A DNA stretch of 55,048 nt from positions 1 to 55,048 of the forward strand of contig CADCTB010000145.1 of assembly GCA_902805665.1 (NCBI GenBank), read 5' to 3'. Made by a program: the position numbers and the translations under genes. This DNA is from an uncultured Acidimicrobiales bacterium. Its GTDB lineage: Bacteria > Actinomycetota > Acidimicrobiia > Acidimicrobiales > AC-14. The notes under the pieces were generated by a model, which worked only from the letters and a program-made list of their open reading frames with translations, ran no database searches and had not been told where the DNA came from. This document shows, piece by piece, positions 1,856 through 31,848 of the stretch (position 1 is the first letter of the stretch; each line of letters starts with the position of its first letter).

Positions 1856-2304
1856 CGCCGCTCCCGGGTCTCGATGCCCCGGCCGGGGTGCCACGACCGG
1901 ATGACCAGGTGGTCGCCGCCGACGGTGGTCAACACCACTTCGTTCACGTCGATACGGAAACGGTGGGAGCCGTCGGGCGGGGCCGGATCGGTGACCTCGA
2001 CGCCCGCGCCGCTGATCTTGGCGTCGCCCAACCACGACGCAGGATCCGCCTCGGGCGCGTCCTCGGTGGGGCAGTGCAGGGCGAGGCGTGGGTCCCGGCG
2101 GAGGTCGAGGGCCTTGAGGGAGGCCGGCATCATGCCGAGGTAGATCTCGCCGTCGTCGGCGAATTCCACCTCGGTACCGCTGATTCGCGGCGACCCGTCC
2201 TTCCGCAGCGTGGCCAGGGTGGCGTGCTTGCGGATGGCGAAGCACCTGCGCACGTGGGCCGCGAAGTCGGGGTCGGCTGCCACGACGTCCTGCCATCCGG
2301 CCAC
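1852..2304 (-). CDS. Pyridoxamine 5'-phosphate oxidase-fold protein, probable F420-dependent reductase
   Basis: A 150-residue single-domain split-barrel protein. The N-terminal HATLATLRKDGSPRISGTEV and the following EIYLGMMPASLKALDLRRDPR are the usual PPOX/FDOR pattern (first strands plus the K..DL.RDPR helix that lines the cofactor site). Family members bind FMN, F420 or haem. F420 is favoured because the gene is the first of an operon with cofD and cofE, but cofactor and substrate are inferred. The start is GTG at 2304. Only 2 nt separate it from the longest form of the divergent dehydrogenase, so one of the two starts, more likely the latter, is probably annotated too far upstream. Confidence 0.8.
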   Translation of the reverse strand: MAGWQDVVAADPDFAAHVRRCFAIRKHATLATLRKDGSPRISGTEVEFADDGEIYLGMMPASLKALDLRRDPRLALHCPTEDAPEADPASWLGDAKISGAGVEVTDPAPPDGSHRFRIDVNEVVLTTVGGDHLVIRSWHPGRGIETRERR

Positions 2305-2306
2305 CC

Positions 2307-3569
2307 GTGCATCATGCCCCGTCTGCGGCCGGTCAGGATCACCGGAGGCCTCCTGAGGGCCGGGTATCGTTCGGCATCCAGGACTTCAGCCGAGACGTCG
2401 TCGTGATCGGGGGGTGCGGGCGGGTCGGGCTTCCACTGGGGCTGGCCTTCGCCGACCGCGGCCTCCGAGTCACCCTGTTCGACATCAATCCGGCCGCGGT
2501 CGCTGACGTGGCGGCGGGGCGGCTGCCCTTCGACGAGCCGGGCGCCGCCGAGGTCATGGCCCGGGTCGTCGGCCACACGCTCGACGCCACCACCGACCCG
2601 GCATGCGTGGCCCTGGCCGAGCACGTGGTCATCGTGGTCGGCACGCCGGTCGACGAACACCTCAACCCCGAGCCTCAAGCCGTTCCCGAGGCGGTCGCCG
2701 CCCTGGCCGGCCAGCTGCGCGACGGACAGCTCCTCGTGCTGCGCAGCACCCTGTACCCCGGCGTCACCGCCATGGTCGAGCGCCTGGTGGCCGGCATGGG
2801 GAAGGACGTCGACGTGGCCTTCTGCCCGGAGCGCATCGCCGAGGGCAAGGCCATGACGGAGCTGTTCGAGCTCCCGCAGCTCGTCGCCGCCCGCACCGAC
2901 CGGGCCATGGAGCGCTCGGCCAAGCTGTTCCGCACCCTCACCGCCCAGGTCGTGCCCCTGGCGCCGGAGGAGGCCGAGCTGGCCAAGCTGTTCACGAACA
3001 CGTGGCGCTACATCCGCTTCGCCATCGCCAACCAGCTCTACATGATCGCCAACGACTACGGCCTGGACTTCGAGCGCATCCGTGGCGCCATGGCTCACGA
3101 CTATCCGCGGGCGGCCGACCTGCCGGGAGCCGGCTTCGCGGCCGGGCCGTGCCTGCTGAAGGACACCATGCAGCTGGCCGCGTTCAACAACAACAACTTC
3201 ACCCTGGGCCATGCGGCGATGATGGTGAACGAGGGCCTGCCCCTCTATGTCGTCCACCGTCTCGAGCAGCGCTTCGACCTGCCGGCGATGACCGTCGGCA
3301 TCCTGGGCATGGGCTTCAAGGCGGAGTCCGACGACGCACGCGACAGCCTCAGCTACAAGCTCAAGCGCATCCTCCGGTTCAAGGCGGCCGGCGTGCTCAC
3401 GACCGACCCACACGTCAGGTCCGACCCCGATCTGCTCGCCCTCGACGAGGTCCTGGAGCGAGCCGACGTGCTGGTGATCGGCGCCCCGCACCAGGCGTAT
3501 GCGGGGCTGAAGCCGCGCCAGCCCGTGATCGACATCTGGGACCTCTACGGCAACGGGGTGGTCGTGTGA
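2307..3569 (+). CDS. Nucleotide-sugar dehydrogenase (UDP-glucose / UDP-ManNAc dehydrogenase family)
   Basis: About 420 residues. It oxidises C6 of a UDP-hexose to the uronic acid with 2 NAD+. The order is an N-terminal Rossmann domain (GGCGRVGLPLG), VVGTPVDEHL, LRSTLYPGVT and CPERIAEGKA, a central helical dimer domain (KLFTNTWRYIRFAIANQ), the catalytic cysteine in GPCLLKDT, and a C-terminal UDP-binding domain with GILGMGFKAESDD. WecC-like and Ugd-like enzymes cannot be separated by eye. The start is uncertain: GTG 2307 abuts the divergent gene, while GTG 2403 would cut the first beta strand. It heads an operon with a GT2 and an epimerase. Confidence 0.88.
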   Translation: MHHAPSAAGQDHRRPPEGRVSFGIQDFSRDVVVIGGCGRVGLPLGLAFADRGLRVTLFDINPAAVADVAAGRLPFDEPGAAEVMARVVGHTLDATTDPACVALAEHVVIVVGTPVDEHLNPEPQAVPEAVAALAGQLRDGQLLVLRSTLYPGVTAMVERLVAGMGKDVDVAFCPERIAEGKAMTELFELPQLVAARTDRAMERSAKLFRTLTAQVVPLAPEEAELAKLFTNTWRYIRFAIANQLYMIANDYGLDFERIRGAMAHDYPRAADLPGAGFAAGPCLLKDTMQLAAFNNNNFTLGHAAMMVNEGLPLYVVHRLEQRFDLPAMTVGILGMGFKAESDDARDSLSYKLKRILRFKAAGVLTTDPHVRSDPDLLALDEVLERADVLVIGAPHQAYAGLKPRQPVIDIWDLYGNGVVV

Positions 3570-19035: not shown

Positions 19036-20252
19036 CGGCCGCCATGGCTGACCCGGCGATCGTCGTCGAGGGTGTCAGCAAGCGATTCCGGCTCTACCAC
19101 GAGCGCAACCGGTCGCTGAAGGCCACCATCATGCGAGGGGGGCGGGCCAGGTACGAGGAGTTCTGGGCGCTGCGCGACGTCTCGTTGGAGATCCCCGAGG
19201 GGATCACCTTCGGGCTGGTCGGCGAGAACGGCTCGGGCAAGTCGACGCTCCTCAAGTGCATCGCCAGGATCCTCCGCCCCGATGACGGCAAGATCCGCAC
19301 CCGCGGCAAGATGGCGGCCCTGCTCGAGCTCGGCTCGGGCTTCCACCCCGAGCTGTCCGGGCGGGAGAACGTCTTCCTGAACGGGTCGATCCTCGGTCTC
19401 TCCAAGCGCGAGCTCACCGCCCGCTTCGACGAGATCGTCGGCTTCGCCGGGCTCGAGCGGTTCATCGACCAGCCGGTGAAGAACTACTCCTCCGGCATGT
19501 ACGTGCGCCTCGGCTTCTCGGTGGCCATCAACATCGATCCCGACGTGCTGCTCGTGGACGAGGTCCTGGCCGTCGGCGACGCGGTGTTTCAGCGCCGCTG
19601 CAACGAGAAGTTCGCCGACTTCCGCCGGGCGGGCAAGACCGTGGTCATCGTCAGCCACGCGGCCGAGGCCATGCGGACGATGTGCGATCAGGTGGCATGG
19701 CTGAAGGATGGCCAGGTGGTGGCCCAGGGCCGCTCCGAGGATGTGGTCGACGACTACGTCGACGAGGGCCACGAGGACAGGGTCGCGGTGGCCGCCGACG
19801 AGGCGCAGAGCAGGTGGGGGTCGGGCGAGGTGCGGCTGCAGTCCGTCCGCCTCGTCGACCGGACCGGTCGGCAGATCACCCACCCCTCCACCGGCGACGC
19901 AGTCACCTTCCGCCTCCGGTACCGGGCGGAGAAGGCGGTGCCCAAGCCGGTGTTCGGCCTGGCTCTGGAGACGCTCGACGGCACCTGGCTGTGGGCCCAT
20001 CACACCCGCGACGCCGGATTCGTACCGGATGAGATCTACGGCGAGGGCACGGTCGACCTGCACGTGCCGCACCTCATGCTCCAAACGGGCACGTACGACC
20101 TCTCCGCCTCGGTGGTCGACTACACCGCCACCCACCAGTACGACTACCTGCGCCGCTGCCTCCGCTTCGACGTCGAGCACGGAACGCCGAGGGAGTCGGG
20201 CGGATTCGTGGCCCTCGGTGGCCAGTGGTCGTCAGCGGACTTCGACGCATGA
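19032..20252 (+). CDS. ABC transporter ATP-binding protein with Wzt-type C-terminal carbohydrate-binding domain
   Basis: 406 residues. The nucleotide-binding domain (1-240) has Walker A GENGSGKSTLLK, the TagH/Wzt-type signature YSSGMYVRLGF, Walker B DVLLVDEVLAVGD and a switch His (IVSHAAEAM). The C-terminal domain (about 255-400) has the Wzt_C pattern: GEVRLQSVRLVD, VTFRLRYRAE, VFGLALETLDG and GTYDLSASVVD. In O-antigen systems this domain binds the capped end of the glycan before export. It pairs with the permease at 22799. GTG 19032 overlaps the methyltransferase stop (GTGA), and ATG 19044 is an alternative start. Confidence 0.92.
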   Translation: MTAAMADPAIVVEGVSKRFRLYHERNRSLKATIMRGGRARYEEFWALRDVSLEIPEGITFGLVGENGSGKSTLLKCIARILRPDDGKIRTRGKMAALLELGSGFHPELSGRENVFLNGSILGLSKRELTARFDEIVGFAGLERFIDQPVKNYSSGMYVRLGFSVAINIDPDVLLVDEVLAVGDAVFQRRCNEKFADFRRAGKTVVIVSHAAEAMRTMCDQVAWLKDGQVVAQGRSEDVVDDYVDEGHEDRVAVAADEAQSRWGSGEVRLQSVRLVDRTGRQITHPSTGDAVTFRLRYRAEKAVPKPVFGLALETLDGTWLWAHHTRDAGFVPDEIYGEGTVDLHVPHLMLQTGTYDLSASVVDYTATHQYDYLRRCLRFDVEHGTPRESGGFVALGGQWSSADFDA

Positions 20253-20262
20253 GGAGGGGCGC

Positions 20263-22776
20263 ATGAACAAGCCTCCGGCCACCCGCGCCGGCATCGTTTC
20301 CGTCATCCTGGTGAATTACCGGGGCGCCGAGGACACCATCACGTGCCTCCGGTCCTTCGCCGGCGTCGATTGGCCCGCCGACCGGCTGGAGCTGCTGGTC
20401 GTCGACAACGCCTCGGCCGACGGCAGCGCCGAGCGGATCCGGGCAGAGGTGCCCGGGGCCCGGGTCATCGAGTCCGACGTCAATCGGGGCTTCGCCGGCG
20501 GTTGCAACCTGGGCGCCGCCGAAGCCAGCGGCGAGTACCTGGCGTTCATCAACAACGACGCCCGGCCCGGTGCCGACTGGATCACCGCCGCGGTCGAGAT
20601 CCTCGACGCCCAGGCCGACGTGGCCGCCGTTGCCAGCAAGGTGCTCGACTGGGACGGCGAGCGCATCGACTTCGTCGACGGCTCCCTGACCTGGTACGGC
20701 ATGGGCTACAAGCGCGAATGCGAGCAGCTCGACACCGGCGAGTGGGACAAGCCCAGGGACGTCCTCTTCGCGACCGGCGCAGCCATGTTCGTGCGGGCCG
20801 GGGTGTACCGGGCGGTCGAGGGCTTCGACGACCGCTACTTCATGTTCTACGAGGACGTCGACCTGGGCTGGCGCCTGAACCTGCTGGGTTGGCGGGTGCG
20901 CTACGTGCCGACGTCGGTGGCCTTCCACCGCCACCACGCCTCCATGAAGAGCTATGGGCCCTGGCGGGAGCACTACCTGCTCGAGCGCAACGCCTTGTTC
21001 AGCATGTACAAGAACCTTGGCGACGACCTCCTGGCCAAGGCTCTGCCCGCCGCCCTCCTCCTGGCCGTCCGCCGCGGGCTCTCCCGGGGCGACGCCGACA
21101 ACACCATCCTCGACCTGTCCGCCTCACCTCCGTCCGGGCCCGAGGAGGAGACGGTGGCGGTCTCCCGCGAGGCCCTGGCGCCGGTCTTCGCCATCGACGC
21201 GCTCGTCGACCAGCTGTCCTCGCTCGACGTGGACCGCGGGCGTCTGCAGTCCGAGCGTCGCCGCAGCGACACCGAGCTGCTGCCGCTCTTCCGCCAGGCG
21301 CTCGAGCCCGCCTACGCCCACCCCCGTTATGAGGCCGCCCACCGGATCCTCGTCGACGCATTCGGCATCGAGAGGGCGTTCAGCACCCGGCGCAAGATCG
21401 TCGTCGCCACCGGCGAGACGCTCTCGGCCCGCATGGCGGGGCCGGCCATCCGGGCCTGGGCCATGGCCGACGCCCTGGCCGCCGAGCACGACGTCGAACT
21501 GGTCACCACCGGGACCTGCACGATCACGAACCCGCGCTTCAGCATCCGCTCGGTGGCTCTGGCCGACATGCGGGGCCTCGAGCGCTGGTGCGACATCTTC
21601 ATCTTCCAGGGCCTGATCCTGTCCACGTTCCGCTGGCTCATAGACAGCGACAAGATCCTGATCGCCGACATCTACAACCCGTTCCACCTGGAGCAGCTCG
21701 AGCAGGCCAAGGACCAGGGGGCCGAGGGCCGGGCCCGCACCGTGAGCGACTGCACGACCGCGCTCAACGACCAGCTCACCAGGGGCGACTTCTTCCTGTG
21801 CGCCTCGGACAAGCAGCGCGACTTCTGGCTGGGCCAGCTGTCGGCCGTCGGCCGGATCAATCCCAAGAACTACGACGCCGACGAGACCATGGGATCGCTC
21901 ATCGCCGTCGCCCCATTCGGCGTGCCGGACGCGCCGCCCGTGCACACCCGTCAGGCTCTCAAGGGTGTGGTCCCCGGCATCGGCGTCGACGACAAGGTCA
22001 TCCTCTGGGGCGGTGGCATCTACAACTGGTTCGACCCGATCACCCTGCTGCACGCCATCGACCGGCTGCGCCATCGGCGCCCCGATGTGCGCCTGTTCTT
22101 CCTCGGCCTCAAGCATCCCAACCCCGACGTGCCCGAGATGCGCATGGCGGTTGCGGCGCGGGCCCTCTCCGACTCTCTGGGCCTCACCGACAAGCACGTG
22201 TTCTTCAACGAGGGCTGGGTGGACTACGACGACCGCCAGAACTACCTCCTCGAGGCCGACATCGGCGTGAGCACCCACCTCGACCACGTGGAGACCGCGT
22301 TCTCGTTCCGCACCCGCATCCTCGACTACCTCTGGACGTGCCTGCCGATCGTGGCCACGGGGGGCGACACCTTCGCCGACCTCATCGAGAGCAACGGCCT
22401 CGGCATCACCGTGCCGCCAGGCGACGTCGACGCCCTCGAAGACGCGCTGTTCCGCCTGCTCGACGACCAGGTGGCCAGCGACGCGTGCCGGGCCCGGCTG
22501 GCCGAGGTCATGCCGAACCACACCTGGAGCCGCGTGCTGGCGCCGGTGGTCGAGTTCTGCCGAGCGCCGAGGCGGGCCGCCGACCTGGCCGCCCCTGTCG
22601 GGTACGAGAACATGAGCGAGCTGGCGGTGGCGATCAGCCGGCGGCCGCGGCTGCGCGCCGACGTGGCGCTGGCCCGGGAGTACTTCCGGGCCGGGGGCCC
22701 GGTCGAGGTGGCCCGGCGGGCTTCCCAGCGGCTGGTTCGTTACGGCGTGGCAGTCGGCCGGCGGCTCGCCGAATGA
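20263..22776 (+). CDS. Bifunctional glycosyltransferase: N-terminal GT2 fused to C-terminal GT4-like domain
   Basis: 837 residues; ATG 20263 has GAGGAGG about 5 nt upstream. Residues 10-260 are GT2 (SVILVNYRGAEDT, LAFINNDARPG as DXD-like site, FYEDVDLGWRLNLLGW). A linker of about 110 residues follows. From residue 377 there is a GT-B domain: VVATGETLSARMAGPAIRAW, VVPGIGVDDKVILWGGG, HPNPDVPEMRMAVAARAL, GVSTHLDHVETAFSFRTR. The C-terminal half is closely similar along its whole length to the stand-alone protein at 25578-26966. It probably adds two sugars in succession. Both specificities are unknown. Confidence 0.88.
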   Translation: MNKPPATRAGIVSVILVNYRGAEDTITCLRSFAGVDWPADRLELLVVDNASADGSAERIRAEVPGARVIESDVNRGFAGGCNLGAAEASGEYLAFINNDARPGADWITAAVEILDAQADVAAVASKVLDWDGERIDFVDGSLTWYGMGYKRECEQLDTGEWDKPRDVLFATGAAMFVRAGVYRAVEGFDDRYFMFYEDVDLGWRLNLLGWRVRYVPTSVAFHRHHASMKSYGPWREHYLLERNALFSMYKNLGDDLLAKALPAALLLAVRRGLSRGDADNTILDLSASPPSGPEEETVAVSREALAPVFAIDALVDQLSSLDVDRGRLQSERRRSDTELLPLFRQALEPAYAHPRYEAAHRILVDAFGIERAFSTRRKIVVATGETLSARMAGPAIRAWAMADALAAEHDVELVTTGTCTITNPRFSIRSVALADMRGLERWCDIFIFQGLILSTFRWLIDSDKILIADIYNPFHLEQLEQAKDQGAEGRARTVSDCTTALNDQLTRGDFFLCASDKQRDFWLGQLSAVGRINPKNYDADETMGSLIAVAPFGVPDAPPVHTRQALKGVVPGIGVDDKVILWGGGIYNWFDPITLLHAIDRLRHRRPDVRLFFLGLKHPNPDVPEMRMAVAARALSDSLGLTDKHVFFNEGWVDYDDRQNYLLEADIGVSTHLDHVETAFSFRTRILDYLWTCLPIVATGGDTFADLIESNGLGITVPPGDVDALEDALFRLLDDQVASDACRARLAEVMPNHTWSRVLAPVVEFCRAPRRAADLAAPVGYENMSELAVAISRRPRLRADVALAREYFRAGGPVEVARRASQRLVRYGVAVGRRLAE

Positions 22777-25553: not shown

Positions 25554-25563
25554 CCCCCGGCCG

Positions 25564-25569
25564 TAGTGT
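25564..25569 (+). promoter_or_regulatory. -10 box TAGTGT, leaderless start of the GT4 gene
   Basis: TAGTGT is followed by 8 nt and then ATG 25578. It lies directly after the terminator, so the gene must have its own promoter, and the spacing predicts a leaderless mRNA. There is no SD before ATG. Confidence 0.5.
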
Positions 25570-25577
25570 CACGCCGG

Positions 25578-26966
25578 ATGAAGATCGCCGTCGCCACTCC
25601 CGACACGCTGACCGCCCGCATGGCCGGGCCGGGCATACGGGCGTGGCAGATCGCCTCGGCACTGGCGCGCCACCACGACGTGCAGCTGGTCACCACCACC
25701 CTCGCCGACCTGCCCGACTCTCCGTTCCCGGTCCGGGCCGTCGACGACGCAGGCTTGGCCGAGGTCGAGCAGTGGTGCGACGTCCTTGTCTTCCAGGGCT
25801 GGCTCGTCCACAAGCGGCCGTTCCTGTTGCAGTCCGAGAAGGTGCTGGTCGCCGACGTCTACGACCCCCTGCACCTCGAGCAGCTCGAGCAGGGCCGCGA
25901 CGACGGCTGGCGGGGCCGGATACTCGCGGTCCAGTCGGCGACGGCGGTGCTCAACGAGCAGCTGCTGCGGGGCGACTACTTCCTGTGCGCGTCGGAGAAG
26001 CAGCGCGACTTCTGGCTGGGCCAGCTGTCGGCGCTCGGCCGGGTGAACCCGGTGACATATGACGCGGACGAGACTCTCCGCTCGTTGATCAGCGTGGTGC
26101 CGTTCGGCGTGCCCGAGGCGCCCCCGGTTCGGACCCGCCCTGCGATCAAAGGCGTCGTCCCGGGCATCGGCCCCGACGACAAGGTCCTGCTGTGGGGCGG
26201 TGGGATCTACAACTGGTTCGACCCGCTGACCCTCCTGCATGCACTCGACCGCCTCCGGCGGCACCGGCCCGACGTCCGCCTGTTCTTCATGGGACTGAAG
26301 CACCCGAACCCCGACATCCCGGAGATGCGGATGGCGGTGGCGGCCCGAGCGCTGTCCGATCGCCTCGGCCTCACCGGCACCCACGCCTTCTTCAACGAGG
26401 GATGGGTGGAGTACGACGACCGGCAGAATTACCTGCTCGACGCCGACATCGGGGTGAGCACCCATCTCGACCACGTAGAGACGGCGTTCTCCTTCCGGAC
26501 CCGGGTGCTGGACTACTTGTGGGCGTCGCTGCCCACGGTGGCCACGGGTGGCGATGCGCTGGCCGACCTGATCGAAGCCCGGCAGATCGGCCTGACCGTG
26601 CCGGCAGGCGATGTCGAGGCATTGGAGGCGGCTCTCGCCCGGATCCTCGACGACGACGAGCTGCGGGCCGCCATGGCCGTCGGCGCAGGGGCGCTGGCCA
26701 CCGAGCTGACGTGGCCGAAGGTTCTCGCTCCACTGGTGGACTTCTGCCGGGACCCGCGGCGGGCCCCGGATCTGCTGGAGCCGGCGCTCGCGGCCGGCTT
26801 CCGTCACGACCTGACGGAGGTCAAGGAGCGGTGGCGGGGGCTGGCCTACGACGTGCAGACGGCCGTCGACCACCTGCGCGAGGGGGGCCCGCTGCTGGCG
26901 GCCCGCAAGGCCGCCGGCCGCGTCCGGCGAACCGCGGTCACGTGGCGCGACCGCGGCCCCGCCTAA
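25578..26966 (+). CDS. GT4-like (GT-B fold) glycosyltransferase, paralogue of the fusion protein's C-terminal half
   Basis: 462 residues. It starts KIAVATPDTLTARMAGPGIRAW, then VVPGIGPDDKVLLWGGGIYNW, the donor-site region RMAVAARALSDRLGL, and GVSTHLDHVETAFSFRTR, DYLWASLPTVATGG. Most of the sequence matches residues 377-800 of the 20263-22776 protein, including long identical stretches such as CASxKQRDFWLGQLSA. So the single-domain and fused versions derive from one another by duplication. A third GT-B copy is not present. Substrate unknown. ATG 25578 is favoured over GTG 25566 because it is where homology begins and follows a TAGTGT box. Confidence 0.87.
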   Translation: MKIAVATPDTLTARMAGPGIRAWQIASALARHHDVQLVTTTLADLPDSPFPVRAVDDAGLAEVEQWCDVLVFQGWLVHKRPFLLQSEKVLVADVYDPLHLEQLEQGRDDGWRGRILAVQSATAVLNEQLLRGDYFLCASEKQRDFWLGQLSALGRVNPVTYDADETLRSLISVVPFGVPEAPPVRTRPAIKGVVPGIGPDDKVLLWGGGIYNWFDPLTLLHALDRLRRHRPDVRLFFMGLKHPNPDIPEMRMAVAARALSDRLGLTGTHAFFNEGWVEYDDRQNYLLDADIGVSTHLDHVETAFSFRTRVLDYLWASLPTVATGGDALADLIEARQIGLTVPAGDVEALEAALARILDDDELRAAMAVGAGALATELTWPKVLAPLVDFCRDPRRAPDLLEPALAAGFRHDLTEVKERWRGLAYDVQTAVDHLREGGPLLAARKAAGRVRRTAVTWRDRGPA

Positions 26967-28185: not shown

Positions 28186-29010
28186 GTGGGCCCGCCGGAC
28201 GCTCTGGTACGGGAGGAGGCGGGCCCCCTACCCGCCTCCGTTTTCGGCCCGGCCCGGCCGCCCCCGGCGCGCGCGGCGCGCACGCTCGTGATCCTCCCGG
28301 CGCTCAACGAGGAGGCCTGCCTCCGCGCCGTGCTCCGGGAGCTGGCGCTGTCGTGCCCGCAGCTCGACGTGCTGGTGGTCGACGACGGCTCCACCGACGG
28401 CACGGCCGACGTGGCCCGCGCCGAAGGCGTGCCGGTTGCCGTCCTGCCGTTCAACCTCGGCGTGGGCGGGGCGCTGCAGACCGGGTTCCGCTACGCGGTT
28501 GCCCACGGCTACGGCCGGGCCATCCAGTTCGACGCCGACGGTCAGCACGACCCGACCCAGGTGCCGGCGCTCCTGGCCGCCCTCGACGAGGGCGCCGACC
28601 TGGTGATCGGAAGCCGGTTCGCGGCGCCGGACACCGGCTCCCAGTACGACGTCGGGCGGCTACGCGGTGGGGCCATGGGCGTGCTCCGCCTGACGGTGCG
28701 CTTCCTGTCGGGCCGGAGCTTCTCGGACACCTCGTCGGGCTTCCGGGCCTTTTCGGCGCCGCTCCTGGCGTTCTACGCGGCCGACTACCCGAACGAGTAC
28801 CTGGGTGACACCGTCGAAGCGCTGCTGCTGGCCTGCCAGGCCGGCTTCCGGGTCGTCGAGGTGCCGGTGAGCATGCGGGTGCGGGCCGCGGGCACACCGT
28901 CGACCCAGAACCTGCGGCTGATCTACCACTACCTGCGCGCCCTGCTCTCCCTTCTCAGCCGGGCGCCGATCCGGCGCCGGGAGCGCGCCCTCAGGAACAC
29001 GACCCGATGA
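28186..29010 (+). CDS. Family 2 glycosyltransferase (DPM1-like)
   Basis: 274 residues from GTG 28186, with a 30-residue Pro/Ala-rich N-terminus. The core is LVILPALNEEACLRAVL, VLVVDDGSTDGTADV, FNLGVGGALQTGFRYA, IQFDADGQHDP as the DXD site, LVIGSRFAAPD and DTSSGFRAFSAPLL. There are no C-terminal membrane helices. The next gene encodes a small DUF2304 membrane protein and overlaps by 4 nt, a common pairing with this GT2 type, suggesting the partner provides the membrane anchor. Probably makes a polyprenyl-phosphate sugar. Confidence 0.85.
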   Translation: MGPPDALVREEAGPLPASVFGPARPPPARAARTLVILPALNEEACLRAVLRELALSCPQLDVLVVDDGSTDGTADVARAEGVPVAVLPFNLGVGGALQTGFRYAVAHGYGRAIQFDADGQHDPTQVPALLAALDEGADLVIGSRFAAPDTGSQYDVGRLRGGAMGVLRLTVRFLSGRSFSDTSSGFRAFSAPLLAFYAADYPNEYLGDTVEALLLACQAGFRVVEVPVSMRVRAAGTPSTQNLRLIYHYLRALLSLLSRAPIRRRERALRNTTR

Positions 29011-29393
29011 GCACGGGCGGGCACGTTTTGATCTTCTCGCTGACGCTGTTCAGCCTGCTGTTCATCGTGCGCATGGTCCGGCGCAACCAGCTGCCGTCCC
29101 GCTACGCCCTGCTGTGGTTGTCGATCGGAGTGGTGATCGGCTTCCTGGCCATCTTCCCGAGGGTGCTCGACCGGGTGTCGAACTGGCTGGGCATCGCCTA
29201 CGCCCCGGGCACGTTCTTCCTCGGCGCCATCACCATGCTGTTCCTGATCGTCGTCCACTTCTCCTGGGAGCTGGCCAGGCTCGACGCCCGCACCCGCCTC
29301 CTCGCCGAGGAGCTCGCCATACTCCGCGCCGATCCGCCACGCGACGCCCCCGGCGTCGCGCCAGCCGAGGAGGACCAGCCTGTCGACCACTGA
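29007..29393 (+). CDS. DUF2304 small membrane protein
   Basis: 128 residues, three membrane helices (VLIFSLTLFSLLFIVRMV, YALLWLSIGVVIGFLAIF, FFLGAITMLFLIVVHFSWEL) and a short charged helix after the third. The RNQLPSRYALLWL segment and FPRVLDRVSNWLGI are the usual DUF2304 pattern. The ATGA overlap with the preceding GT2 and the 14-nt overlap with the following GT2 show tight coupling. It is likely an accessory or anchor for the neighbouring glycosyltransferases, as its family is usually found beside them. No catalytic residues. Confidence 0.82.
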   Translation: MSTGGHVLIFSLTLFSLLFIVRMVRRNQLPSRYALLWLSIGVVIGFLAIFPRVLDRVSNWLGIAYAPGTFFLGAITMLFLIVVHFSWELARLDARTRLLAEELAILRADPPRDAPGVAPAEEDQPVDH

Positions 29394-30741
29394 CGAGGCC
29401 GCGCCCGCGCCACCACGGCCGCGGGTACGGGTCGTCGTCGTCAACCACAACGGTGGCGAGCTCACCGTTTCGTGCCTCCGCAGCCTCCAGAGGTCCGACT
29501 GGCCGGCCGACGCGCTCGACATCGTGATGGTCGAGAACGGGTCCACCGACGGAGTGGCGGCCCGGGTGGGCGACGAGCTGCCCGGCGTCCGAGTGATCGA
29601 CGCGGGAGGAAACCTGGGCTTCGGCGGCGGGTGCAACCTGGCCCTGGCCGACCTCGACGGAGTTGACTACGTGGCCCTGGTCAACAACGACGCCCAGGTC
29701 GACCCCGGCTGGCTGGCGCCCCTCGTCGAGGTGCTGGAGGCCGACCCGACCGTCGGCGCGGCCAACCCGAAGATCCTGTTCGCCGACAGCTTCGTCGACG
29801 TCCGCCTGTCGTCGGAGACGGGAACGCGCGGGCTGGGCGACCGGCGCCCGCTGGGGGTGCGCCTGTCGGGAGCGAGGGTCGACGGGCGGGACGCCTGGGA
29901 CCGCCTGCAGCTCGTTTCGGGGTTCTGGGGCCTGGAGCACGGCTCCGACGGCGAGGCGACGTTCGAGTGGACCAACGGCGACGCCCACCTCCGCGTCCCG
30001 GCCGGTGCGGTGTGCGAGCTGCGGCTGGCATCCGACGACGACCGGACCGTGGTCGTGCAGTCGGGGCCGCACAGCACCGCGCTGCACGTGACTCCGGAAC
30101 CGTCCTGGTACCAGGTGGCGGTCGACGGCGACCCGTTCGACGTGGTCAACAACGTGGGGTCGGTGGTGCTGGCCGACGGCCACGGGGCCGATCGGGGCTT
30201 CCTCGAGCGCGACGAGGGTCAGTTCGAAGAGGTCGAGGAGATCTTCGCCTGGTGCGGCGCCGCCGTCCTCCTGTCCCGCCGGTACCTCGAGCAGGTCGGG
30301 CTCTTCGAGGCCCGCTACTTCCTCTACTACGAGGACTTCGACCTGTCCTGGCGGGGCCGAGCCCAGGGTTGGCGCTACCTGTACGTGCCAGGGTCGGTCG
30401 TCCGCCACGTGCACTCGGCATCGTCGGTCGAGGGCTCCCGGCTGTTCCAGCACTACGACCAGCGCAACCGCCTGCTGACCCTGACGCGCAACGCGCCGTC
30501 GGGACTGGCGGTCCGCGAGGCCGGCCGCCACCTGCTCATCACCGGCTCCTACGCCCGGCGCGACATCTTCGTCCCCCTGGCCCACCGCCGGTCGCCCTCG
30601 GTCGAGACCGTCCGCCGTCGTATGCGGGCGTACGGTGCGTACGTGCGCATGCTGCCTGAGGCGATTGCCGGTCGCCGGGAGCTCACGGCACGAGGCCGGC
30701 TGGCCGACGAGGAGCTGTCCAGGTGGATGCATCAGCGGTGA
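29380..30741 (+). CDS. Family 2 glycosyltransferase with inserted beta-rich domain, probable CTG start
   Basis: 453 residues from CTG 29380. The GT2 N-terminus VRVVVVNHNGGELTVSCL must be translated, yet the first ATG/GTG/TTG in frame is GTG 29524, inside the fold. The CTG has GAGGAGGA 5 nt upstream and gives a normal N-terminus (STTDEAAPAPP). LVNNDAQVDPGW is the DXD-like site and YYEDFDLSWRGRAQGW the later motif. Between them lies an extra stretch of about 115 residues (FEWTNGDAHLRV, VCELRLASDD, WYQVAVDG) that looks like a beta-sandwich. It may bind substrate or polymer. Likely a rhamnosyltransferase-like chain-building enzyme. Confidence 0.85.
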   Translation: MSTTDEAAPAPPRPRVRVVVVNHNGGELTVSCLRSLQRSDWPADALDIVMVENGSTDGVAARVGDELPGVRVIDAGGNLGFGGGCNLALADLDGVDYVALVNNDAQVDPGWLAPLVEVLEADPTVGAANPKILFADSFVDVRLSSETGTRGLGDRRPLGVRLSGARVDGRDAWDRLQLVSGFWGLEHGSDGEATFEWTNGDAHLRVPAGAVCELRLASDDDRTVVVQSGPHSTALHVTPEPSWYQVAVDGDPFDVVNNVGSVVLADGHGADRGFLERDEGQFEEVEEIFAWCGAAVLLSRRYLEQVGLFEARYFLYYEDFDLSWRGRAQGWRYLYVPGSVVRHVHSASSVEGSRLFQHYDQRNRLLTLTRNAPSGLAVREAGRHLLITGSYARRDIFVPLAHRRSPSVETVRRRMRAYGAYVRMLPEAIAGRRELTARGRLADEELSRWMHQR

Positions 30742-30759: not shown

Positions 30760-31848
30760 ATGAAAGCGCTCATCCTGGCCGGCGGTGCAGGCACCCGACT
30801 ACGGCCGATCACCCACACCAGCGCCAAGCAGTTGGTCCCCGTGGCCAACAAGCCGATCCTGTTCTACGGGCTCGAGCAGATGGCGGAGGCCGGCATCGTC
30901 GAGGTCGGCATGGTGGTGGGCGACACGGCCGAGGAGATCCGGGAGGCGGTCGGAGACGGCTCGGAATGGGGATTGAAGGTCACCTACCTTCCCCAGGAGG
31001 CCCCACTGGGGCTGGCCCACTGCGTGCTGATCGCCCGGGAGTTCCTGGGCGAGGACGACTTCGTCATGTACCTCGGCGACAACCTGCTCCGGCAGGGGGT
31101 GAAGGGGTTCGTCGAGCAGTTCGAGGCCGACGGACGGATCGGCACCGGCTCGAAGCCGGCGGTCGCCCAGATCCTGCTGGCGCGCGTCCCCGACCCGCAG
31201 CGGTTCGGCGTGGCCGAGATCGGACCTGATGGCGAGGTCCTGCGCCTTGTCGAGAAGCCGGTCGAGCCGCCGTCCGACCTGGCCCTGGTGGGCGTCTACC
31301 TCTTCGACCCCACCATTCACGAAGCGGTGCGCGCCATCGAGCCCTCGGCCCGGGGCGAGCTGGAGATCACCGACGCCATCCAGTGGCTCCTCGACTCCGG
31401 CCACCGCGTGCACCACCAGATCGTCGACGGTTGGTGGATCGACACCGGAAAGCTCGACGCCCTCCTCGAGGGCAACCGGCTCATCCTGGAGACGCTCGAC
31501 CAGCGCATCGACGGTTCGGTCGACGCCGAATCCAAGATCGAGGGTCGGGTCGTGGTCTGCGAAGGGGCCGAAGTGGTGGCCTCCACCATCCGGGGCCCGG
31601 TCATCATCGGCGCCGGCACCAGGATCGAGCACAGCTTCGTCGGCCCCTTCACCTCCATCGCCGAGCGGTGCCAGGTGGTGCGCTCCGAGATCGAGCACTC
31701 GGTCATCCTCGGCGACAGTCGCATCGTCGACATCCCCCGGGTCGAGGACTCGCTGATCGGCAAGCAGGTGGTGGTCACCCGGTCGGCCCGCCGTCCCCGC
31801 GCCAACCGCTTCATGCTCGGCGACCACTCCCAGGTCGACCTGACCTAG
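30760..31848 (+). CDS. Glucose-1-phosphate thymidylyltransferase, long (StrD/RmlA-like) form
   Basis: 362 residues. The N-terminal nucleotidyltransferase domain has LILAGGAGTRLRPIT, KQLVPVANKPILFYGLEQM, VMYLGDNLL, ARVPDPQRFGVAEI, LVEKPVEPPSDLALVGVY and WWIDTGKLDALLEGN. From about residue 245 a left-handed beta-helix region follows (hexapeptide-like repeats IEGRVVVCEGAEVV, GPVIIGAGTRIEHS). That tail separates StrD-type enzymes from the 290-residue RmlA. It makes dTDP-glucose (or a similar NDP-sugar) for deoxysugar supply. It ends the cluster. The spacing to the previous gene is 18 nt, and TAGACC precedes ATG. Confidence 0.87.
   Translation: MKALILAGGAGTRLRPITHTSAKQLVPVANKPILFYGLEQMAEAGIVEVGMVVGDTAEEIREAVGDGSEWGLKVTYLPQEAPLGLAHCVLIAREFLGEDDFVMYLGDNLLRQGVKGFVEQFEADGRIGTGSKPAVAQILLARVPDPQRFGVAEIGPDGEVLRLVEKPVEPPSDLALVGVYLFDPTIHEAVRAIEPSARGELEITDAIQWLLDSGHRVHHQIVDGWWIDTGKLDALLEGNRLILETLDQRIDGSVDAESKIEGRVVVCEGAEVVASTIRGPVIIGAGTRIEHSFVGPFTSIAERCQVVRSEIEHSVILGDSRIVDIPRVEDSLIGKQVVVTRSARRPRANRFMLGDHSQVDLT

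Follow-up and report, generated by a model that had tools for sequence, protein, structure and literature searches.

A glycosyltransferase gene of an uncultured Acidimicrobiales bacterium probably translated from a CTG codon conserved in three species of its genus

The window analysed here is a stretch of 55,048 nucleotides, contig CADCTB010000145.1 (C145) of a 3.5-Mb bin (GCA_902805665.1, here G000) from an uncultured Acidimicrobiales bacterium. By its sequence the region around the gene of interest looks like a surface-polysaccharide cluster, with glycosyltransferases of the GT1 and GT2 types, an ABC transporter with a Wzt_C domain, an ABC2 membrane protein, a DUF2304 protein and RmlA. Its relevant part comprises, in order, a first GT2 gene, the DUF2304 gene, a second GT2 gene for which CTG is the predicted start codon, and rmlA (Table 1); GT2 below denotes this second gene unless stated otherwise. 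For the comparison within the genus we used three genomes, namely G000 itself and the metagenome bins G001 and G002. DNA identity among the three species is 79-81% over an aligned 1.8 kb, the GT2 proteins of the two relatives are 81 and 83% identical to the G000 version, and the 14-nt overlap between DUF2304 and GT2 is present in both. Elsewhere in the window lie two GT1 regions (21394-22595 and 25560-26774) that cross-match: in G001 and G002 the counterpart of either one is also hit by the other, with DNA identities of about 74-76%. A duplication of the GT1 domain is suggested by this, one copy sharing its frame with a GT2 domain (19705-22776).

Table 1. Features of the GT2 locus and of two further genes discussed in the text (positions refer to the window unless a contig is given)
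Feature	Position	Strand	Remarks
Upstream GT2 gene	28186..29010	+	ATGA overlap with DUF2304
DUF2304 gene	29007..29393	+	PF10066, 75 bits; last 14 nt overlap the GT2 start
Shine-Dalgarno GGAGG, 6-nt spacer to CTG	29369..29373	+	inside GAGGAGGA (29367-29374); identical in three species
CTG start codon (predicted)	29380..29382	+	CTG in 3/3 genus genomes
Predicted GT2-fold glycosyltransferase gene	29380..30741	+	453 aa if the start is CTG 29380; PF00535, AlphaFold2, 29-sequence alignment, codon pattern
Predicted strand 1 of the GT2 fold	29425..29445	+	residues 16-22 from CTG (AlphaFold2)
GTG, first ordinary in-frame start codon	29524..29526	+	residue 49, within strand 2; rejected
rmlA-type glucose-1-phosphate thymidylyltransferase gene, downstream	30760..31848	+	TIGR01208, 463 bits (cut-off 320)
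UDP-glucose/GDP-mannose dehydrogenase gene, probable start ATC 2376	2376..3569	+	PF03721, 105 bits; ATC in 3/3 genus genomes
RlpA-like gene, probable CTG start	G000:C222 (L233), CTG 3475-3473	-	DPBB_1, 43 bits; CTG kept in 3/3 species

The GT2 frame is open from stop to stop over 29248-30741, and the first ATG, GTG or TTG in it is codon 93, the GTG at 29524. Within this frame the Pfam profile Glycos_transf_2 (PF00535) is matched with 57 bits, against a cut-off of 23.3, from nucleotide 29431 and profile position 2 onwards. An AlphaFold2 model built on 29 sequences (mean pLDDT 90.5) places helix 1 at residues 26-37 and strand 2 at residues 46-52, numbered from the CTG, behind the predicted strand 1. 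The claim of the earlier note that the N-terminal strand of the fold lies upstream of the first ordinary start codon was thus borne out, and a start placed at GTG 29524 would give an enzyme without strand 1 and helix 1. Among the 29 aligned sequences V20 of strand 1 is invariant, as are G25 and P42, all three upstream of this GTG, while V16, V19 and N22 of the same strand are nearly invariant. Likewise invariant are N102 and D104, in a region which we take to be the acidic metal-binding site. Foldseek matched the model to ppGalNAc-transferases, a Leptospira glycosyltransferase and Nocardia GlfT2 (the nearest among the structures listed), all of which are presumably GT-A folds; across the 50 structures listed, identity is 11-24% and the TM-score by query length does not exceed 0.51. 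By sequence domain and modelled fold GT2 is hence a predicted GT-A-fold glycosyltransferase. Between its two Pfam-matched halves the model has a long, mostly beta stretch (residues 125-271; 29752-30192) that aligns across the 29 homologues.

The earlier note had pointed to an excellent sequence 5 nt ahead of the CTG, and the DNA indeed reads GAGGAGGA, then CCAGC, then CTG. The 16S rRNA of G002 ends in GGATCACCTCCTTTCT, which carries CCTCC; the bins of G000 and G001 yielded no 16S gene. The combination of GGAGG, 4-9 nt and CTG occurs 29 times in the window as against 27.1 expected, with 32 of 100 shuffles reaching 29. Given that this count matches the chance expectation, the motif by itself proves nothing in such a GC-rich window; what counts as evidence is where it stands, that it is conserved and that alternatives are missing. 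We also considered, and rejected, a conserved RNA structure around the GT2 start: of the two sequences folded, that of G000 is predicted to be paired in the CTG region (z -2.4), and this is not repeated in G002 (z 0.8).

The earlier note had proposed that an alignment of close relatives might reveal an ATG or GTG at the same codon. In all three genomes the homologous codon is CTG, preceded by the same GGAGG and spacer, and no other near-cognate codon common to the three species occurs from the Shine-Dalgarno sequence to strand 1. It lies in a 20-nt block, GGAGGACCAGC-CTG-TCGACC, that is invariant in the three-way DNA alignment, with length differences shortly before and soon after it; the same alignment holds three other invariant runs of 20 nt. 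The DUF2304 codon ahead of GAG GAC CAG is GAG, TCG and CCG in the three species, its third base, a G that completes GGAGG, being kept. Third bases are invariant in 52 of the 91 DUF2304 codons whose amino acid is conserved, and a row of eight invariant third bases such as this one has a chance of about 0.01, a rough figure for a stretch picked after it had been seen. The CTG also falls within DUF2304 codons (Pro-Val), and part of its conservation may be due to DUF2304.

The distribution of substitutions over codon positions shows where one coding frame gives way to the other. In DUF2304 the variable sites at first, second and third positions number 27/16/55 over 129 codons. When the 80 codons before the CTG are read in the GT2 frame, the figures are 10/35/15, which is the DUF2304 pattern seen in another frame. 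From the CTG to 29524 they become 7/8/21 over 42 codons, and from 29524 on 70/57/211 over 413 codons, the last few of which lie past the stop. Substitutions thus follow the GT2 frame downstream of the CTG and the DUF2304 frame upstream of it. This pattern indicates selection on the GT2 protein, visible already before 29524. No stop codon interrupts the GT2 frame in any of the three species of the genus.

Other codons do exist in the frame, and translation might begin at one of them: GTG 29524, an ATG at -42 found only in G001, or the shared codons AGG at -9, AGG at about -75 and ACG at about -96. We regard this as very improbable. The GTG lies within strand 2 and the codons preceding it show GT2-frame constraint, the AGG at -9 is part of the Shine-Dalgarno sequence, and the two more distant codons fall in a zone that shows constraint of the DUF2304 type only. 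The ATG of G001 deserves closer attention, given that the earlier note had held CTG to be the only possible start and would have counted as a refutation any relative whose frame continues to an ATG further upstream. Judged from sequence, the first statement stands for G000 and G002, in which no ATG, GTG or TTG occurs between the upstream stop and strand 1. Taken literally, such a relative does exist in G001; however, its ATG, 14 codons upstream of the CTG, has no GGAG, AGGA or GAGG in the preceding 20 nt, coincides with a variable His/Arg codon of DUF2304 and has no equivalent in G000 or G002.

At the level of the order, 397 genomes were searched with the protein; 58 gave a match at E <=1e-60, and the start regions of 50 of these homologues were read. 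Left out were those of G157, G048, G220, G241, G372, G146, G120 and G222, among which three matches are confined to the C-terminal part. In 45 of the 50 strand 1 is preceded by an in-frame ATG, GTG or TTG, counted as codons present and not as demonstrated starts. The other five comprise the genus itself (three genomes, the ATG of G001 being doubtful), G365 with CTG only and G006 with GCG. In G365, which belongs to another family, strand 1 is preceded by no NTG but the CTG at 1459 of locus L025; GAGGG stands 7 nt ahead of this CTG, and the GT2 frame is the same as that of the upstream gene, with one TGA between them. We rejected it as a further CTG case: it is a single genome in which an indel or error is possible, and the only other genome of its genus in the comparison (65% identity) has GTG and a different arrangement. 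In G006, also a single genome, L011 has GCG at 1513 where the related G004 has a GTG start, and no ordinary start is left before strand 1. Single in-frame TGA codons were seen inside the matched stretch of two GT2 homologues, L017 (G038) and G300:C42:20954-22285, and of one homologue of the dehydrogenase considered below, L210 (G354).

The arrangement of the two frames raises a further alternative, namely that DUF2304 and GT2 are made as one fusion protein by a +1 ribosomal frameshift within the 14-nt overlap, with no need of a separate start. GT2 is in the +1 frame of DUF2304, the short overlap is conserved in three species, and a Shine-Dalgarno-like sequence can stimulate frameshifting, as it does in prfB. 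Against this, GGAGG is 6 nt from the CTG, a spacing suited to initiation, whereas its distance from the last DUF2304 codon ahead of the stop is 14 nt, too far for prfB-like shifting. Moreover, that last codon varies (CAC, CGC, CAC), no slippery run was seen at the overlap, and elsewhere in the order 45 of the 50 homologues read carry their own ordinary start codon ahead of strand 1. Hence we consider frameshifting very unlikely. Least credible is a gene decaying after loss of its start, or an assembly error at the start: the two relatives are metagenome bins of one series, but the same codon in three species this divergent, the predominance of third-position variation and the uninterrupted frames leave this reading with hardly any probability.

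We therefore think it very probable that GT2 is a real and functional gene translated from CTG 29380, a weak CUG start to which the strong Shine-Dalgarno sequence, together with ribosomes that have just completed DUF2304, would lend help. Directly observed are where the codon lies, that alternatives are missing, that three species conserve it and that the substitutions switch frame; initiation at the CTG itself, coupling to DUF2304 and a low output are inferred from them. In the scheme that we propose the ordinary initiator tRNA (CAU) would read the CTG as formyl-methionine, and GGAGG, lying near the end of DUF2304, would position the ribosome on it. Given that the DUF2304 stop, TGA 29391, begins 11 nt past the first base of the CTG, ribosomes finishing DUF2304 probably re-initiate there. 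Such re-initiation would make a poor start codon usable, and the output of GT2 would stay low relative to that of DUF2304.

The initiator-type tRNA of G000, encoded on C4, is ordinary, with a CAU anticodon and GGG/CCC in the anticodon stem. A 75-nt tRNA with a CAG anticodon on C86 was considered as an unusual initiator and rejected, as its stem lacks GGG/CCC, it lies within a tRNA array and the ordinary CAU tRNA exists. According to ARAGORN the tRNA arrays of G000 hold 11 genes at C86:600-3700 (L176) and four at C142:50-2250 (L177). The 75-nt tRNA with the CAG anticodon in these arrays has no long variable arm. Such an arm, usual in tRNA-Leu, is also missing from the 75-nt tRNA at C81:5346-5419 (L189), the only one with a TAG anticodon among the tRNA loci that were scanned.

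Starts at CTG are rare but known, and at least one has been proven; judged from sequence, the GT2 start is a new and well-supported candidate. Ribosomes have been toeprinted at a CUG upstream of dnaA, reportedly in Caulobacter. That CUG, as excerpts of the source have it, is not used in vivo (PMC8443254), and work on M. tuberculosis used CUG as a non-start control (PMC11260477, in excerpt). For mycobacteria, which are likewise actinobacteria, an excerpted account reports no enrichment of CTG among starts (0.03%), not even behind a Shine-Dalgarno sequence (PMC4633059), and the reporters described there count against efficient CTG use. Annotated CTG starts number 20 among nearly 85,000 genes (0.024%), and CTG gives roughly tenfold lower expression than TTG (Hecht et al. 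as quoted in excerpts of PMC11983097). In the available text of a cryo-EM study with a tRNA-fMet variant, the first codon-anticodon pair at CTG is described as too distant for strong pairing (PMC11497404). The excerpted part of PMC5622118 records that ancestral AUG starts turned into CUG in 2 of 61,358 cases, and that the Shine-Dalgarno sequences of GUG and UUG starts tend to be stronger or better conserved, with some phyla as exceptions.

The FIB rep gene of F-like plasmids of E. coli resembles GT2 in that it combines, in pO157, a CTG start with GGAGG; changing this CTG to CTC abolishes replication (PMC11983097, in excerpt). Its start is mostly recorded at a GTG 14 codons downstream, to which GTG 29524, 48 codons downstream, would be the counterpart in GT2 (PMC11983097, in excerpt). 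The two differ in that the rep start is proven by N-terminal analysis and mutation and belongs to a plasmid replication gene, whereas that of GT2 is predicted from sequence; furthermore, GT2 overlaps DUF2304, whereas the excerpted text of PMC11983097 describes no overlap of rep with an upstream gene. The AUU/AUA starts of Staphylococcus aureus cvfC1/ccpN, according to the portion of PMC13009471 at hand, are likewise non-standard, conserved across species and preceded by a strong Shine-Dalgarno sequence, and they lower output; however, they concern other codons and genes that are not glycosyltransferases, and were established by ribosome profiling and reporters. Among the open-licence full texts searched, no report of a CTG start codon was found under Acidimicrobi-.

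Two other genes of the genus also seem to lack an ordinary start. They emerged from a survey by eye of 33 conserved frames of the window and 82 on three other G000 contigs, some of which are probably not genes. In three of these 115 frames (GT2, a dehydrogenase and an RlpA-like gene) no usable ordinary start was seen. The same survey in a control genus of the order (G061 with G247 and G333; GC 57-62%) found none in 42 frames, numbers too few to call a difference, the more so as the control has lower GC and more divergence. Frames 4104, 22616 and 41907 were discarded as candidates on account of ordinary starts or overlapping neighbours, as were two suspects on C213 and C221, which proved on alignment to have ordinary starts.

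The UDP-glucose/GDP-mannose dehydrogenase has no usable ordinary start in its stop-to-stop frame (2184-3569): GTG 2307 lies in a stretch missing from G002, and GTG 2403 lies in the first Rossmann strand and is GTC in G002. ATC 2376 is the only near-cognate start common to the three species, and in all three the distance from it to the GGCGRVG motif is 33 nt, while TATCGT ends 5 nt ahead of the ATC. Its position directly behind a TANNNT box possibly points to a leaderless mRNA. Homologues were matched at E <=1e-100 in 38 genomes of the order, and 30 loci were examined, three from the genus and 27 from outside it. Among the latter, 23 have an ATG, GTG or TTG within 24-42 nt of the motif on its upstream side, the commonest position being -30 (L214 and L215 have theirs at -27, L212 and L218 at -42); the homologues thus mostly carry an NTG one codon downstream of the position of the genus ATC. 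The other four are L220 without the motif, L225 cut at a contig end, L210 with a broken frame and L223 with distant TTGs only. L223 (G219, a single genome) has GGAGG and no NTG closer than 63 nt to the motif, and is a possible further start-less case outside the genus.

The RlpA-like gene was compared in the three species of the genus, in all of which no ATG, GTG or TTG occurs from the upstream stop to the CTG. The CTG lies in a conserved stretch and is in each the sole shared NTG before the signal-peptide core. The next ordinary codons (TTG +30, ATG +54, TTG +45) are not shared and stand at or inside the hydrophobic segment; the Shine-Dalgarno sequence is weak (GGGGAA). The CTG codons of GT2 and the RlpA-like gene and the ATC of the dehydrogenase raise the tentative idea, which we hold to be less probable than not, that this genus tolerates and keeps non-standard starts in several genes.

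To our knowledge, common gene finders do not consider CTG starts. The conservation of the GT2 CTG in three species, together with an overlap that could supply ribosomes, offers a concrete test of whether coupling can rescue a CUG start in actinobacteria, and the two further start-less genes of the genus make a wider search worthwhile. If the genus is indeed relaxed in this respect, its start selection would be looser than that of mycobacteria, and starts of this kind would be systematically misplaced in gene-finder annotations.
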